Assembly: GCA_001873285.1 (NCBI GenBank)
Contig: MNYV01000157.1
Coordinates: 1-15,082 of the forward strand
Direction of reading: 5' to 3'
DNA: 15,082 nucleotides
From: Nitrospirae bacterium CG2_30_53_67
GTDB lineage: Bacteria > CG2-30-53-67
Part shown: in pieces, positions 3,720 through 14,149 of the stretch
How positions within the stretch are numbered: position 1 is the stretch's first letter
Layout of the letters: each line of letters begins with the position of its first letter
Made by a program: the position numbers and the translations under genes
The notes under the pieces: generated by a model
Database searches by the model: none
What the model was told of the DNA's origin: nothing
What the model saw: only the letters and a program-made list of their open reading frames with translations

Positions 3720-4178
3720 ATGAAACGCCCGTCCTGGGAAGAGTATTTTATGGACATCACCCACATGGTCAAGAGCCGCTCGACCTGCCTTCGAAGGCAT
3801 ATCGGGGCCGTCATCGTGAAGGATAAGAATATCCTGGCCACCGGCTATAACGGCGCGCCGTCCGGGACTCGGCACTGCCTGGATATCGGCTGCCTCAGGG
3901 AAAAAATGAACATTCCCTCCGGGGAGCGGCACGAACTCTGCAGGGCCCTGCATGCGGAACAGAACGCCATTATCCAGGCCGCGAAGCACGGGGTCAGCAT
4001 CGACGGGGCCGACTTGTACTGCACAAACCTCCCCTGTCTCATCTGCTCCAAGATGATCATCAATGCAGGGATCAGGAGAATCTTTTACGAAGGGGACTAC
4101 CCGGATCCTCTGTCCAGGGAAATGCTCATGGAAGCCGGAGTGGAATTAATTCAATGTCAGGAGAGCGGCACGGAATAA
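3720..4178 (+). CDS. Deoxycytidylate (dCMP) deaminase, ComEB family
   Basis: Zinc enzyme of the cytidine deaminase fold that converts dCMP to dUMP, the substrate of thymidylate synthase. The 152 residues from the ATG at 3720 fit the ComEB/dCMP deaminase family. The active site is complete: HAEQNAI gives zinc ligand His78 and catalytic Glu80, and LPCLIC gives Cys106 and Cys109. The [10 protein letters not shown] segment between the two motifs resembles the extra metal-binding insertion of dCMP deaminases, separating this protein from plain cytidine or tRNA adenosine deaminases. The N-terminal [29 protein letters not shown] stretch is also typical. It sits 31 bases after glyA and before nrdR, a context of deoxynucleotide supply. 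Allosteric control by dCTP and dTTP is known for the family but cannot be read here. The names comEB and dcd are both used for such genes, so no symbol is given. Confidence 0.92.
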
Positions 4179-4184
4179 AATTGA

Positions 4185-4243
4185 GAGACGAAACCACAGA
4201 GTGCACAGAGCAATACTCTGTGTTCTCTGTGGTTAGATTTTAA
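4185..4243 (+). repeat. Dispersed palindromic element, copy 1 (full length)
   Basis: Near-perfect hairpin with 19-base arms: AACCACAGAGTGCACAGAG (4192-4210), loop CAATA (4211-4215), and CTCTGTGTTCTCTGTGGTT (4216-4234). Only two central positions fail to pair, one of them a possible G-T. Each arm holds CACAGAG twice at a 9-base period. The stem is preceded by GAGACGA and followed by AGATTTTAA. It starts six bases after the dCMP deaminase stop and ends about 30 bases before the nrdR ATG. The same element occurs at 8009-8044 and 13339-13398. A T-rich tail after the stem could give weak termination or mRNA processing between the two genes; that role is inference. Confidence 0.85.
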
Positions 4244-4273
4244 CAATACGAAAACGACCCCAAGGAGGCCTCT

Positions 4274-4774
4274 ATGAAATGTCCTTTTTGCGGCCATGTG
4301 GAAGACAAGGTCGTGGACTCGAGACTGAGGCGTGAAGGGGATGCAATCCGGCGGCGGAGGGAGTGCCTTTCCTGCCGGCGGCGATTCACCACCCATGAAC
4401 GGGTGGAGGACATCCTCCCCATGGTGATCAAGAAAGACAACCGGCGGGAGCCCTTCGACCGGAAAAAGATCATGGACGGCATGGTCAGGGCCTGCGAAAA
4501 ACGCAGCGTGAGCATGGATACCATCGAGGCCATCGTGGACCGGATTGAGCGGAAATTCCAGGACAGGATGGAAAAAGAGATCCGGAGTGAGGAGATCGGT
4601 GAAGAAGTCATGAGAGCGCTCCATGAAACCGATGACGTGGCCTATGTGCGGTTTGCATCCGTCTATCGCTCGTTCAAGGACCTGAATGACTTTATGAATG
4701 AGCTGGAAGAAATCCTGAAGCTCCGGGAGCAGGGAAAAACCAAGACCGTGGACAACAAAGAGGCCGTGCCTTGA
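4274..4774 (+). CDS. nrdR: Transcriptional repressor NrdR
   Basis: Nucleotide-sensing repressor of ribonucleotide reductase operons; binding of ATP/dATP sets its oligomer state and DNA binding. Domains are classic: an N-terminal zinc ribbon with Cys3, Cys6, Cys31 and Cys34 (CPFC and CLSC) and the [18 protein letters not shown] signature, then an ATP-cone from about residue 48 ([16 protein letters not shown]) to about 140 ([17 protein letters not shown]). Length (166 aa) is slightly above the usual 150-160. An AAGGAGG Shine-Dalgarno (4262-4268) lies five bases before the ATG. I saw no obvious NrdR box in the intergenic regions here, so its targets are presumably elsewhere. In many relatives nrdR is followed by riboflavin biosynthesis genes; here the next genes are rnf. 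Confidence 0.96.
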
Positions 4775-7391: not shown

Positions 7392-7991
7392 ATGCGCAAT
7401 GAGATGTTCAAGATGGTTCTGGTTCTGACCCTTTTCTGCGTGGTGGCTGCCGGCCTTCTGGCCAAGGTCAATGACATCACCAGGGCGCCCATTGCCGAGG
7501 CCAAGGCCGAGGAGACGCGGCAGGCCCTCCGCGGTGTGCTCCCTCCCTTTGACAACAAGGTCGACGAAGAATTTGTTGAAAAGAAGATCGGCATAGACAA
7601 GAAAGGAAACGATGTCATGACAAAGGTCTATACCGCCAAACAGCAAGGAAAGATCATCGGAAGGGCCTTTGTGGTGGTAGCGCACGACGGCTATGGCGGA
7701 GATATTGAAATCATGATGGGCGTCAGCCCGGAAGGAAAGATCACCGGTATCGAGATTCTCAGCCTGAGTGAAACCCCCGGCCTGGGCGCCAAGATTGCAA
7801 GTGTTGAGACCTGGCCAGGGAGGGGAAGCGGCCCCGGAGGACTGATAGGCAAGTCCCTGGAAAATAACCTGAAGGTCAAAAAAGACGGCGGTGAGATCGA
7901 TCAGATCACCGGGGCCACCATCTCGCCGAGGGCCGTGGTCAGCGCGGTAAAAAAAGGGCTTGAATTTCACAAACATGAGTTTCAGGGATAA
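7392..7991 (+). CDS. rnfG: Rnf complex subunit RnfG (covalent FMN, periplasmic)
   Basis: Single-span membrane protein whose FMN-binding domain faces the periplasm and relays electrons in Rnf. One hydrophobic helix (about residues 6-25) is followed by a soluble FMN-binding domain. It contains GYGGDIEIMMGVSPEGKITGIEILSLSETPGLGAKI and the flavinylation motif ITGATISPRAVV, with the expected FMN-carrying Thr at 176. Length (199 aa) is usual. A GGGAAGAG site lies just upstream of the ATG. It lies between rnfD and rnfE, the standard order, with 89- and 81-base gaps; the second gap holds a copy of the dispersed palindrome. NqrC is the related alternative, but the neighbours are Rnf and not Nqr genes. 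Confidence 0.94.
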   Translation: MRNEMFKMVLVLTLFCVVAAGLLAKVNDITRAPIAEAKAEETRQALRGVLPPFDNKVDEEFVEKKIGIDKKGNDVMTKVYTAKQQGKIIGRAFVVVAHDGYGGDIEIMMGVSPEGKITGIEILSLSETPGLGAKIASVETWPGRGSGPGGLIGKSLENNLKVKKDGGEIDQITGATISPRAVVSAVKKGLEFHKHEFQG

Positions 7992-8008: not shown

Positions 8009-8044
8009 AGATGAAACCACAGCTCTGTGGTTAGGTTTTTAAAA
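8009..8044 (+). repeat. Dispersed palindromic element, copy 2 (centre-deleted)
   Basis: Short hairpin AACCACAG (8016-8023), CT, CTGTGGTT (8026-8033), preceded by GAGATGA and followed by AGGTTTTTAAAA. Compared with copy 1 it keeps both outer ends and flanks but lacks the inner CACAGAG units and loop. It begins 17 bases after the rnfG stop and ends about 28 bases before the rnfE ATG, in the direction of transcription. Perfect outer stem plus a T-run makes it terminator-like although short. Confidence 0.75.
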
Positions 8045-8072
8045 CACACCTGCTGAGGGAAAAGAGGAGACC

Positions 8073-8672
8073 ATGAAACTGATTCAGGAATTCACCAAAG
8101 GACTCTGGAAGGAAAATCCGATTCTCAGGCTGGTGCTCGGGACATGCCCCACCCTGGCAACCACCACCAGCGCGTTGAACGGCATGGGCATGGGGCTCGC
8201 AACTCTTGCGGTGCTCATCGGTTCGAACATGGCTGTGGCCCTCTTGAGAAATTTTATTCCCAGCAAAGTACGGATCCCCGCCTTTATCGTGCTGATCGCC
8301 ACCTTTGTGACCGTGGTGGACCTTCTCATGAACGCCTTCAGCCATAACCTGCATAAGTCTCTGGGTCTCTTTATCCCTCTGATTGTGGTCAACTGCATCA
8401 TCCTCGGCCGAGCGGAAGCCTTTGCGTCCAGAAACACCGTCCTCTACTCGATGATCGACGGTCTCGGCATGGGACTCGGCTTCACCCTGGCCCTGACGAC
8501 CTTGGGAAGCATCCGGGAGATCCTGGGGAACGGGACCCTCTTCGGCATGGTCCTCTTCGGCAAGGGGTATCTCCCCATGATCGTGATGATCCTTCCTCCC
8601 GGCGCATTCCTCATGCTCGGCTTTATGATGGCCGCTATGAACTGGATGGAAGACCGGTTGAAGATCCGATAG
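8073..8672 (+). CDS. rnfE: Rnf complex subunit RnfE
   Basis: Integral membrane subunit that, with RnfA, forms the ion-translocating core and holds an intramembrane 2Fe-2S cluster. Six hydrophobic segments fill the 199 residues. Family features are GLWKENPILRLVLGTCP with Cys25, FIPLIVVNCIILGRAEAFASRN with Cys108, GSIREILGNGTLFG and the PPGAF stretch. The GRAEAF and REILGNGTLF motifs mark it as RnfE and not RnfA; the two cysteines are those known in the family to bind the shared cluster together with RnfA. AGAGGAG precedes the ATG by three bases. It is the last rnf gene here: only 39 bases separate it from an unrelated TPR gene, where rnfA and rnfB would be expected. Confidence 0.95.
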   Translation: MKLIQEFTKGLWKENPILRLVLGTCPTLATTTSALNGMGMGLATLAVLIGSNMAVALLRNFIPSKVRIPAFIVLIATFVTVVDLLMNAFSHNLHKSLGLFIPLIVVNCIILGRAEAFASRNTVLYSMIDGLGMGLGFTLALTTLGSIREILGNGTLFGMVLFGKGYLPMIVMILPPGAFLMLGFMMAAMNWMEDRLKIR

Positions 8673-11115: not shown

Positions 11116-11281
11116 GAAGGGTTCGAGGGTTCAAGGATTCCAGGGGCCAAGTGAAATGCTAAAAACATAAGGGGCCGAGGGTCATAGGGGTCAAGGGTTC
11201 AAGGGTTTTTCTCTGGAGATTTTGCTTTCTTTGAAGTATTTCACTTGACCCCTCGAACCCTGGAATCCTCGAACCCTTTTT
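11116..11281. repeat. Long imperfect inverted repeat in a convergent gap (MITE/REP-like)
   Basis: The left arm (11116-11160) and right arm (11235-11281, read in reverse) share GGGTTCGAGG, ATTCCAGGG and an AAGTGAAATRCT inner end. The order of the inner modules differs: the left arm has GTTCAAGG before ATTCCAGG, while the right arm has TTCGAGGGG after it. The 74-base middle carries more of the same words (GGGGCCGAGGGTCATAGGGG, TCAAGGGTTCAAGGG). No protein is encoded. It lies between the stops of two convergent TPR lipoprotein genes (11096 and 11306), so it could also end transcription from both sides, but there is no clean hairpin plus T-run. It is unrelated in sequence to the CACAGAG palindromes. 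Confidence 0.75.
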
Positions 11282-11305: not shown

Positions 11306-12292
11306 TTAAGGCTTCAGTCCCAGCGCCGACTCCGCTGTCTCTATGTTCTTGTACAGATCCTTGCTGTCTTCGTGCCCCTTGAGCATCTCTTCGGCGCGAT
11401 TCAGCGTTTCACGAACCTTTGGATCATCTCCCTTTTCATGGTAGATCCTGGCAAGAATCAGCAGATCCTGCACGGCGCCGGAAAGATCATCCGAAGCCGT
11501 ATGCGAGAGAAAGGAACGCCCGGCATATTCCTCAGCCAGGGAGCTTTGGCCTCGGCTGAGATGAAACCGGGCGAGCCTTTGCAGGTCCAGAGAGACGCCG
11601 GATGGAATTTCCAACTTGCGGTGCCTCTTTAGGGCGGAGGTAAGAAGCGCCAGCGCCTCTTCAGGGCGGTCCCGGTTCATGGCCAGAACGCCGAGGCCGC
11701 TCTCTCTCGAGGCCATGCCGGGCTCGTCCCCGGCCTCCTGGTCCAGACGGTAGGCCTCCCTGAGATATGCCTCGGCATCCTCCCATGCCTGAAGGGTGAT
11801 CTTCAGCCCGCCGAGCCTTCCGAGGGCCGTTTTCCTTGATCGGGTGTCACGATTCTCAAGAGAAATATTCTCAGCCGATTCGTAAGCGGAACGCGCCTTT
11901 TCATATTCCTCTTTCATGACGTAGGCATCGCCCATATGGATGAGGATGTCGGCCTCTGCGGCCCGGTCGGATACGGCCCTGGACAGCTTGAGCGCCTCTT
12001 GAAAAAACTCCAGCGCGCCGTCCGGGTCAGAGTGTTTCAGCCGGATAGCCCCCAGGTTGTTCAGATCAATCAATGCCCCTTCCCGGTAATCGATGCTCCG
12101 GTTCAGCCGAAGGGCCCGTTCAAATTCCGATTGGGCGGCGCTGAGGTTGCCGAGGGAGAACTGTTTCATTCCGGCTTGGTTGGCCTCGGCGGAGAGGCCG
12201 CGAACCGGACCGAGAACCGCGCGGCGCGGCGCACAAGCCGAATTCAGAACCAGACAAAAAATCATCGGCAGGAAAAACCAAAATCTCATCAT
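11306..12292 (-). CDS. TPR-repeat lipoprotein at the end of the mla operon
   Basis: Probable membrane-anchored TPR protein of 328 aa, function unknown. The start MMRFWFFLPMIFCLVLNSAC is a compact lipoprotein signal with lipobox Cys20. Residues from about 36 to 310 form roughly seven TPR-like units of the longer tetratricopeptide kind (ALxFFQEALKLSRAVSDRAAEADILIHMGDAY, EDAEAYLREAYRLDQEAGDEPGMASRESGLGVLAM). The ATG at 12292 overlaps the mlaD stop by four bases (ATGA), with AGGAG about seven bases upstream, so it is translated with the transporter. It stands where a transporter-specific lipoprotein (PqiC/LetB-partner type) or MlaC might be found, yet it shows no such fold. A role in linking the MCE protein to the outer membrane is possible but unproven. 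Confidence 0.85.
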   Translation of the reverse strand: MMRFWFFLPMIFCLVLNSACAPRRAVLGPVRGLSAEANQAGMKQFSLGNLSAAQSEFERALRLNRSIDYREGALIDLNNLGAIRLKHSDPDGALEFFQEALKLSRAVSDRAAEADILIHMGDAYVMKEEYEKARSAYESAENISLENRDTRSRKTALGRLGGLKITLQAWEDAEAYLREAYRLDQEAGDEPGMASRESGLGVLAMNRDRPEEALALLTSALKRHRKLEIPSGVSLDLQRLARFHLSRGQSSLAEEYAGRSFLSHTASDDLSGAVQDLLILARIYHEKGDDPKVRETLNRAEEMLKGHEDSKDLYKNIETAESALGLKP

Positions 12293-13314
12293 GGCTCGGT
12301 CTCCTGATCATGAAATGGAGAAGCCTCCAGCAGGATTCTCTCTTCAGCCGTGGGACGTTCCGGGAGGTTGCCGCGTATCAGCCAGTTCCGTTTGGCCGAC
12401 TCCATCACGTCCTCGGCCCCCCGTGCCGCGTTCCGGAATGATCCTGAAATGGCCGGGAGGTCTCTGGATGCTGTCAGGAGATTTTTCGTGGTTTCGTCCA
12501 CTCGGAGGGTGATCTCGGGAAAATGCTCCGAGCTTTTAAGCAGGTCCCTTGAGACAGCGCTGATGTCTTCCATGGCCTTTCTCGTAGAGTCCATCAAAGC
12601 CGGTAGATCCGCTGAAGCCGGCTCGATCCCGGCCATTGTTTTTTTCAAGGCTTCTGCAGCTTCACTGCCGGAACGAACCAGTGAGACGAATTCATTATAG
12701 AGCGCCGGGTCGTTCACGGCCGAACCGATGGATCCTTTTCCCTGGTCTACCTTCTTCAAGATATTATCGGCATGCTCCAGAGCGGCTGCCATGGGAATTT
12801 TTTCCATGGAGAACTCCCCGGTGATCCTGGAGAGATGGGTGAGAATTTGATCCACCTTGGCCACCATGGGCGACAACTGGTCCACAACGCCGGCAATATC
12901 GAAGGGGTCCTTGGATGGGATACCGGCCCCGTTCGGGATGATCATCTTCTCTTTGGAACCGATCATAATCTCTACGCTCTTATCCCCCAGGATCCCGACC
13001 GAACTGATGGTGGCCACCGAGTCTCCCCGGATCTGTTCCTGATACCTCGTCTGTATGGAGAGGACGGCCAGAACCTTCCCGTCCGCAGTAAAATCCAACG
13101 ACTCGACGTTCCCCACCTCAAGCCCTGCCAGACGGACCGGCGAGCCCACCTTGAGTCCGCCGACTTGGGAAAAGAGGGCGGTCAACCGGTAGCGGGGCTC
13201 AAACAGCTTCTGCTTCCCGGCGATGGTAAACACCAGGACCGAGATCACGGCCAGCCCAATCAGGATAAACAGCCCGACAATGGTTTCAGTGGTTCTCGAT
13301 TCCGGCTTTGACAT
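12289..13314 (-). CDS. mlaD: MCE-domain protein, MlaD family
   Basis: Periplasmic substrate-handling subunit of a phospholipid ABC transporter of the Mla/MCE class. Residues about 12-32 form one membrane anchor (VGLFILIGLAVISVLVFTIAG). The MCE domain spans about 38-118 (RLTALFSQVGGLKVGSPVRLAGLEVGNVESLDF, then SSVGILGDKSVEIMIG). A long, largely helical C-terminal half follows (about 140-310), longer than in E. coli MlaD (183 aa) and typical of single-MCE proteins in other phyla, where helices form a tunnel or needle. The ATG at 13314 has a strong AAGGAGGAG site. The 82-base gap from mlaF contains copy 3 of the dispersed palindrome. The downstream TPR lipoprotein overlaps the stop. Confidence 0.92.
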   Translation of the reverse strand: MSKPESRTTETIVGLFILIGLAVISVLVFTIAGKQKLFEPRYRLTALFSQVGGLKVGSPVRLAGLEVGNVESLDFTADGKVLAVLSIQTRYQEQIRGDSVATISSVGILGDKSVEIMIGSKEKMIIPNGAGIPSKDPFDIAGVVDQLSPMVAKVDQILTHLSRITGEFSMEKIPMAAALEHADNILKKVDQGKGSIGSAVNDPALYNEFVSLVRSGSEAAEALKKTMAGIEPASADLPALMDSTRKAMEDISAVSRDLLKSSEHFPEITLRVDETTKNLLTASRDLPAISGSFRNAARGAEDVMESAKRNWLIRGNLPERPTAEERILLEASPFHDQETEP

Positions 13315-13338
13315 ATCCTCCTCCTTATCCGACGAATT

Positions 13339-13398
13339 TCAAAAACTAACCGGTAGAGAACACAGAGTATTTCTCTGTGGACTCTGTGGTTTCATCTT
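13339..13398 (-). repeat. Dispersed palindromic element, copy 3 (reverse orientation)
   Basis: Read on the minus strand it starts AAGATGA, then AACCACAGAGTCCACAGAG, loop AAATA, CTCTGTGTTCTCTACCGGTT and AGTTTTTGAAA. It aligns with copy 1 throughout; differences lie mainly in the outer right arm, where ACCGG replaces the pairing bases and weakens the outer stem. The inner stem of CACAGAG with CTCTGTG is perfect. The element begins at the mlaF stop codon itself, which it supplies or abuts, and ends about 24 bases before the mlaD start. Like the other copies it runs in the direction of transcription. Confidence 0.82.
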
Positions 13399-14149
13399 AC
13401 CCATAAAGGAACTCCCTGACTTTGGGATCGGGGTTCCCCTTGATTTCTTCAAGAGAATCCGTAAGCAAAATCTTCCCATCATGGAGCATGGACACCCTGT
13501 CCGCCACCTTGAAGGCCAGACGGATGTCGTGCGTCACCACCAGGGAGGTGATCGTCAGCCTCTTCTGAAGATCCCGGATCAGACCTCCGATGGTGTCCGA
13601 GGTAATCGGATCGAGCCCTGTGGTCGGCTCATCGTAAAAAACAATCTCCGGCTCGAGGGCGATGGTCCTGGCCAGAGCGACTCGTTTCTGCATGCCCCCG
13701 GAAAGCTCCGACGGCATCTTATCCTGGATCTCTCCGAGACCCGCCATGGCAAGGAGCCTTGACACCTTTTCATCAATCTCGGGCCGATCCAGTTTTGTAT
13801 GGATCTCCAAAGGGAAAGCGATGTTGTCCCTCACATTCATGGAGTCAAAGAGCGCCGCCCCCTGAAACAGGAACCCCACTCGGGTCCAGATCTCCTTCCA
13901 TTCCGATTCCGTGCGGAAGGCCGTGACCTCTCTGCCTTGAATCATCACGCGGCCTCGATCGGGCTTCAAAAGTCCGATCAGGATGCCGAGCAGGACCGAT
14001 TTCCCTGAACCGCTCCCGCCAAGAAGGACCAGGGTTTCTCCTTTGTGCACCATGAGGTCGATGCCGCTTAAGACCTCCATATCTCCGAATGACTTCCCGA
14101 CACCCTCGACACGGATGACCGGTTCCTCTCCATTCCCTCCATCACTCAT
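13397..14149 (-). CDS. mlaF: ABC transporter ATP-binding protein, MlaF family
   Basis: Cytoplasmic ATPase driving the Mla-type lipid transporter. All motifs are intact: Walker A GGSGSGKS (44-51), Q-loop Gln96, signature LSGGMQKR (149-156), Walker B IVFYDEP with catalytic Glu174, D-loop TTGLDP, and H-loop His207 (VVTHD). GFLFQGAALFDSMNVRDNIAFPL after the Q-loop is a hallmark of the MlaF/TtgA2 subfamily. Length (250 aa) is close to the usual 270, without the C-terminal tail seen in E. coli. The ATG is preceded by GGAGGA seven bases upstream and lies three bases after the mlaE stop. The stop codon adjoins palindromic element copy 3. Confidence 0.95.
   Translation of the reverse strand: MSDGGNGEEPVIRVEGVGKSFGDMEVLSGIDLMVHKGETLVLLGGSGSGKSVLLGILIGLLKPDRGRVMIQGREVTAFRTESEWKEIWTRVGFLFQGAALFDSMNVRDNIAFPLEIHTKLDRPEIDEKVSRLLAMAGLGEIQDKMPSELSGGMQKRVALARTIALEPEIVFYDEPTTGLDPITSDTIGGLIRDLQKRLTITSLVVTHDIRLAFKVADRVSMLHDGKILLTDSLEEIKGNPDPKVREFLYG

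Follow-up and report, generated by a model that had tools for sequence, protein, structure and literature searches.

By sequence comparison, the three hairpins of the window (the whole stretch of 15,082 nt of Nitrospirae bacterium CG2_30_53_67 DNA that was analysed) are the most reduced, MITE-like form of a small gene-carrying cassette. The reading that we prefer, with a probability of roughly 70%, is that they are non-autonomous, internally deleted cassette remnants in sense placement, and that the GxxExxY protein encoded by the intact cassette most likely cuts or mobilises them via CRCNRAG words.

Window hairpins and the parent cassette

Reading the sequence at each place confirmed the coordinates and orientation that the first-pass annotation had given for the three hairpins (Table 1), all of which lie in the sense direction on either strand, and Pfam matches agree with its naming of the downstream genes as nrdR, rnfE and mlaD. 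As it had described, the left edges are 0–17 nt past the upstream stop and the right edges 24–30 nt short of the next start. By sequence reading, copy 1 follows a TAA stop at 4176–4178 and copy 2 the rnfG stop at 7989–7991, copy 3 overlaps the mlaF stop at 13397–13399, and the next ATGs are at 4274, 8073 and 13314, respectively. The arm, loop and tail architecture that it considered common to all three holds for copy 1, but copy 2 is without the inner CACAGAG arms and loop and consists of AAACCACAG/CTCTGTGGTT only, and in copy 3 the outer arm on the right is broken (CTCTACCGGTT). With up to one mismatch, the word AACCACAGAG occurs six times in the window (0.7 expected). A second dispersed repeat family (the AAGGGTTCGAGGGTTCAAGGATTCC inverted repeat) lies between convergent genes at window positions 11117–11278 and again at L068:2870–3110; L306 has it at the cdaA/ybbR junction, a place that is occupied by a CACAGAG element in the sister species introduced below.

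Table 1 Hairpin remnants in the window, their right-end tails and the genes that follow them.
Feature	Position	Strand	Remarks
Hairpin remnant 1	4185..4243	+	both CACAGAG arm pairs retained; 5' of nrdR
Copy 1 right-end tail TTTTAACAATACG	4238..4250	+	begins 36 nt ahead of nrdR ATG
Hairpin remnant 2	8009..8044	+	most reduced, AAACCACAG/CTCTGTGGTT; 5' of rnfE
Copy 2 right-end tail, degenerate	8036..8048	+	about 37 nt ahead of rnfE ATG (sister species: 36)
Hairpin remnant 3	13339..13398	-	outer right arm broken; 5' of mlaD
Copy 3 right-end tail TTTTGAAATTCG	13333..13345	-	31 nt ahead of mlaD ATG
nrdR, 3' of copy 1	4274..4774	+	PF03477 + PF22811
rnfE-type subunit gene, 3' of copy 2	8073..8672	+	PF02508
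mlaD, 3' of copy 3	12289..13314	-	PF02470

The window's assembly (G000; 2.36 Mb in 183 contigs, 95% complete) has about 25 such sites. Searching it by blastn with copy 1 gave 31 matches, and ACCACAGAG words numbered 57, compared with 12 for a reversed control. In agreement with the dispersed element that had been proposed, a covariance model gave 31 hits in G000 and 29 in a sister species of the same genus (G001, Hainich groundwater bin143), counts in which a palindrome may appear on both strands. The same model had 0 hits in four genomes of the same family, so within the family the hairpins look restricted to this genus. Similar full elements, whose proteins are 74–77% identical, were found in two Nitrospira/Nitrospirae MAGs and one deltaproteobacterial MAG. 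There is also a third repeat family (CATTCCCCGACTCGATCGGGGAATCC / GGTCAAGCCGGACAATGAC), whose copies are nested in CACAGAG elements or inserted next to them (L044 and L057, on G000 contigs C92 and C16).

A complete element of about 0.55 kb, which shares its ends with the hairpins, was found in G001 (L141:2029–2534). It begins with a left end (ATGTCAAAAGTTT...AAAAGGATGAGAG-ATG) in which both the Shine-Dalgarno and the start codon of the single gene are located, and continues through CACAGAG arms, a GxxExxY ORF (2031–2447) and inverted CACAGAG arms to the right end GGTTAGGTTTTGACAATACG. The ORF starts at the ATG of GAGATGAAACC inside the left end, has its own Shine-Dalgarno (AAGGATGAGAG) and encodes a GxxExxY protein of 138 aa (TIGR04256, 3.2e-42; PF13366, 1.2e-40), a member of this family with scores above the curated cut-offs (143.6 bits vs 35 and 138.9 vs 22). 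The same full-element region is present twice in G001 (L141 and L142, contigs C2 and C107), probably through assembly duplication, and was counted once.

Copy 1 aligns with both ends of this element (window 4182–4227 and 4209–4252), and copy 3 with its left end. At the rnfG/rnfE junction, G001 carries a version of about 250 bp that has the same ends and keeps the final part of the GxxExxY ORF (L134:1595–1840). When the full element was compared with all copies by blastn, both ends were present at most sites. The interior pieces vary: L134 matches element positions 42–115 and 386–548, L055 matches 50–117 and 427–558, and L139, L144 and L145 likewise retain other interior pieces, with breakpoints that differ from copy to copy. 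Considering the common ends and differing interior pieces, the short hairpins are best read as internal-deletion products; comparison with G001 shows that deletion between the inverted CACAGAG arms removed the gene and left the hairpin. G000 yielded a single GxxExxY gene (L071), and this sits in a cassette of another repeat type (CGCAGAG), so that the window copies are orphans in this 95%-complete assembly.

G003 and G004 lack the element at the orthologous sites that allow comparison, as does G001 at several of them. At site C64, for instance, the element lies between ...agaatg and acccatcagaaggag, and the element-free sequence is gcaatgacccatcagaaggag. At site C16b, the upstream stop region is doubled around a composite insert (ATCCTGTAGTCACGG, ATACTGTAGTCACGA; 11–15 bp) and single in G001. 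This is the sole convincing target duplication, with a weaker one at C123c. A test over 14 sites gave no significant signal of target-site duplication as a general rule.

Placement relative to the start codon

The first-pass annotation placed the element between co-directional genes, which is correct for the three window copies but not genome-wide, as at least two copies (C93/L061 and C123/L059) are in divergent intergenic regions. What is regular genome-wide is instead that the copies lie in sense and at a constant spacing from the start codon of the gene that follows. The tail TTTTGACAATACG begins 35.5 ± 2.0 nt (s.d.) 5' of the start codon across 25 independent sites, with 25/25 at 31–39 nt and 19 at 35–37 nt, and every tail-bearing copy faces the gene it precedes except at site C166, where the tail faces away. 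Under uniform insertion in the available gaps, 4.9 of 16 sites would be expected within the band actually occupied, and 16/16 were found there, although the gaps are approximate (simple gene finder) and the band was picked after the data were seen. The spread is slightly larger for the distance to the Shine-Dalgarno than for that to the start codon (s.d. 3.0 vs 2.2), and the better reference point may thus be the start codon or a feature that scales with it.

Random orientation or position, which had been named as the sign of neutral repeats, was not seen for the tail-bearing family. The proposal of a mobile palindrome with strict insertion preference agrees with the dispersed copies, the empty orthologous sites, the sense-only orientation and the fixed start distance; mobility itself we infer. 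Upstream of genes lacking the element, the 13-nt tail was not found (0/108), which rules out a motif native to every gene. A promoter at the TTGACA of the tail was also rejected on sequence inspection, because its -10 position would coincide with the Shine-Dalgarno. Other CACAGAG repeats are irregular in orientation and distance (12 stretches of genome G054 and seven of G250), which rules out one fixed placement for all of them, and we therefore claim the placement rule for the tail-bearing family only. In G054 itself (L345, L340), there is one intact GxxExxY cassette. The roughly 90 tandem CACAGAG words of this genome follow no evident start-codon rule, and many of them are single arms in G/A-rich arrays.

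The insertions are in sense, and their right end lies about 23 nt 5' of a start codon. This is beyond the Shine-Dalgarno and outside the footprint usual for the 30S subunit, which is probably why the next gene would remain translatable.

The GxxExxY protein and its bracketing repeats

The GxxExxY protein is a predicted RecB/Cas4-like PD-(D/E)XK nuclease, considering that its conserved D, ExK and QxxxY residues correspond to the active site of that type. Across 32 sequences, H34, D82, E92-x-K94 and Q106 never vary, and Y110 hardly does. The predicted structure model is confident (mean pLDDT 90), and its first Foldseek matches are lambda exonuclease and Cas4 SSO0001, both modest (E about 1e-3, TM about 0.5). 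The match to a Cas4 profile is weak, and a sequence search for relatives of solved structure found none. There was no GxxExxY match in phages, and the matches in eight plasmid records are all below 60% identity.

To sample the family widely, we scanned genome contigs and used the best 80 of 582 confirmed GxxExxY loci, from many phyla. Among these best 80, inverted-repeat flanks (score of at least 18) were present at 45/70 GxxExxY loci vs 0/88 control genes from the same contigs, and tandem CRCNNAG words on both sides at 39/70 vs 1/88. Across distant phyla, the inverted repeats that bracket GxxExxY are made of tandem CRCNRAG words in lineage-specific forms (CACAGAG, CGCAGAG, CGCCAAG, CACGAAG, CACAAAG, CACGGAG). 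Mapped on a weakly resolved protein tree, repeat type changes 15 times vs 25 when shuffled (as low in 0/200 shuffles), a tracking that common descent alone could produce. The next gene is co-stranded at 43/53 GxxExxY loci (background 38/54), and the median gap is 10 nt on the side of the upstream stop and 36 nt on that of the next start, all by rough automatic gene calls. Across 290 genomes, uncorrected for relatedness, GxxExxY is present in 31/38 of those with tandem CACAGAG words vs 41/252 of the others (p = 1.7e-15), leaving 7/38 repeat-bearing genomes with no GxxExxY hit. Many annotated GxxExxY proteins have N-termini that resemble translated repeats, and the upstream reading frames in our scan agree with this.

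Together, the conserved active site, the association of repeat and gene, and the tracking of the protein tree by repeat type point to the nuclease as the agent of repeat recognition, and we infer that it drives mobility. It would most likely recognise the tandem CRCNRAG words, cut, and mobilise or copy the cassette, and it would act in trans on the gene-less copies too.

Alternative explanations and related systems

The placement might reflect selection rather than targeting, if translation suffers from insertions closer than about 23 nt and more distant ones run into the preceding gene, so that one slot survives in packed operons. Most gaps are indeed short, most left edges lie within 0–20 nt of the upstream stop, and in other phyla the spacing between GxxExxY loci and the next start is looser (the median of 36 nt given above, with a wide range). 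We consider this explanation rather unlikely, however, as the tail-to-start distance is the same in long gaps (48, 58, 197 and 330 nt, the latter two being divergent regions), the observed narrow spread was never reproduced by simulated uniform insertion, and no tail-bearing copy was found between convergent genes, unlike the repeat family at 11117–11278. A different enzyme, such as a REP-associated tyrosine transposase or an IS transposase, could instead have moved the palindromes, with GxxExxY as a passenger or parasite of the same ends. G000 does encode a REP-associated tyrosine transposase (just above the NCBIfam cut-off), G054 combines its roughly 90 repeat words with one GxxExxY gene, and seven repeat-bearing genomes are without GxxExxY, but no CACAGAG lies within 1.5 kb of the G000 tyrosine transposase locus, and in many phyla the repeats tightly bracket GxxExxY and not the 23S rRNA intervening-sequence protein (IVP) control genes, which makes another mover improbable.

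We give still less credit to a retained RNA element (an attenuator, terminator, or processing or stability hairpin) that spread or persisted for the sake of regulation, the other proposal of the first-pass annotation. The exclusively sense orientation, the fixed start-codon distance, the retention of several sites in two species and the strong fold of copy 1 (z-score -7.1; copies 2 and 3 have -2.0 and -2.8) are what such an element would predict. Although 84% of stem cells pair across 14 hairpins from both species, the compensatory stem changes that would support an RNA role were not found: changes were two-sided in 1/17 pairs, and 383/500 shuffles were as high. With stem changes uncompensated, a retained RNA structure is unsupported. 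Orthologous hairpins also decay by deletion or stem loss (C123a and the mlaD copy of G001, L135, which is shorter than its ortholog, copy 3), the downstream genes are unrelated to each other, the interior of longer copies is an ORF remnant, and the hairpins were not found in the four same-family genomes. Rfam had no match in the window, and an RNA family was rejected on this and the missing covariation. An effect of the hairpins on the host transcript is nevertheless possible.

The REP-associated transposase (RAYT) was set aside as partner, as its Y1 gene has no adjoining repeats, and 23S rRNA IVP (four-helix-bundle) ORFs were set aside as the cassette gene, as they are present without CACAGAG brackets. 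The REP-associated tyrosine transposase-like protein at L068:883–1863 (-) has a stretch resembling the DnaA C-terminal helix-turn-helix in the same ORF. In the unrelated genome G015 (L154, L156, L159, L161 and others), there are 19 partial IVP (PF05635) matches, many in close opposite-strand pairs, as if long palindromes.

The cassette remnants resemble MITEs in being short, gene-less, palindromic copies that have both ends of a longer gene-carrying element and originate by internal deletion. Unlike MITEs, the parent encodes a predicted PD-(D/E)XK nuclease and no known transposase, the arms are built of 7-bp words in tandem, copies lie only in sense and at a constant spacing from start codons, and target duplication is convincing at one site (C16b) with no general signal. 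With REP/REPIN sequences and their RAYTs they share dispersed intergenic palindromes tied to one small nuclease-like protein, but here no Y1 tyrosine transposase adjoins the repeats and the partner is a predicted RecB/Cas4-like nuclease. According to PMC3733652, most REPs have a GTAG or CGTC tag at the palindrome end. Neither tag is in the consensus ends GATGAAACC and GGTTAGGTTTT. The cassette also resembles free-standing homing endonuclease genes, which are generally known as lone small nuclease genes sitting harmlessly between other genes, and there is one weak fold match of this kind (3r3p). Unlike one-site homing, there are many insertion sites per genome, repeated ends and gene-less derivatives.

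The open-access literature, which is the part that our search covered, had no report of GxxExxY with bracketing repeats, deletion derivatives, start-anchored placement or mobility, and nothing relevant for the repeat sequence strings; two of its papers mention GxxExxY, and neither deals with repeats or mobility. CACAGAG-type repeats and the "GxxExxY protein" are both common in environmental genomes and have no accepted function. Linking them makes both testable, as there is now a nuclease gene, binding-site-like repeats, gene-less derivatives and a start-codon placement rule. More tentatively, and at less than even odds, GxxExxY-CRCNRAG cassettes could be a widespread and apparently undescribed class of mobile element that goes in between genes in sense, at a distance measured from the next start codon, with the translation start region as a safe target and the CACAGAG repeats of environmental genomes largely its debris. 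If insertion is indeed measured in this way, it would be an unusual means for a selfish element to spare its host's operons, and measuring from the start codon may be a useful targeting principle.
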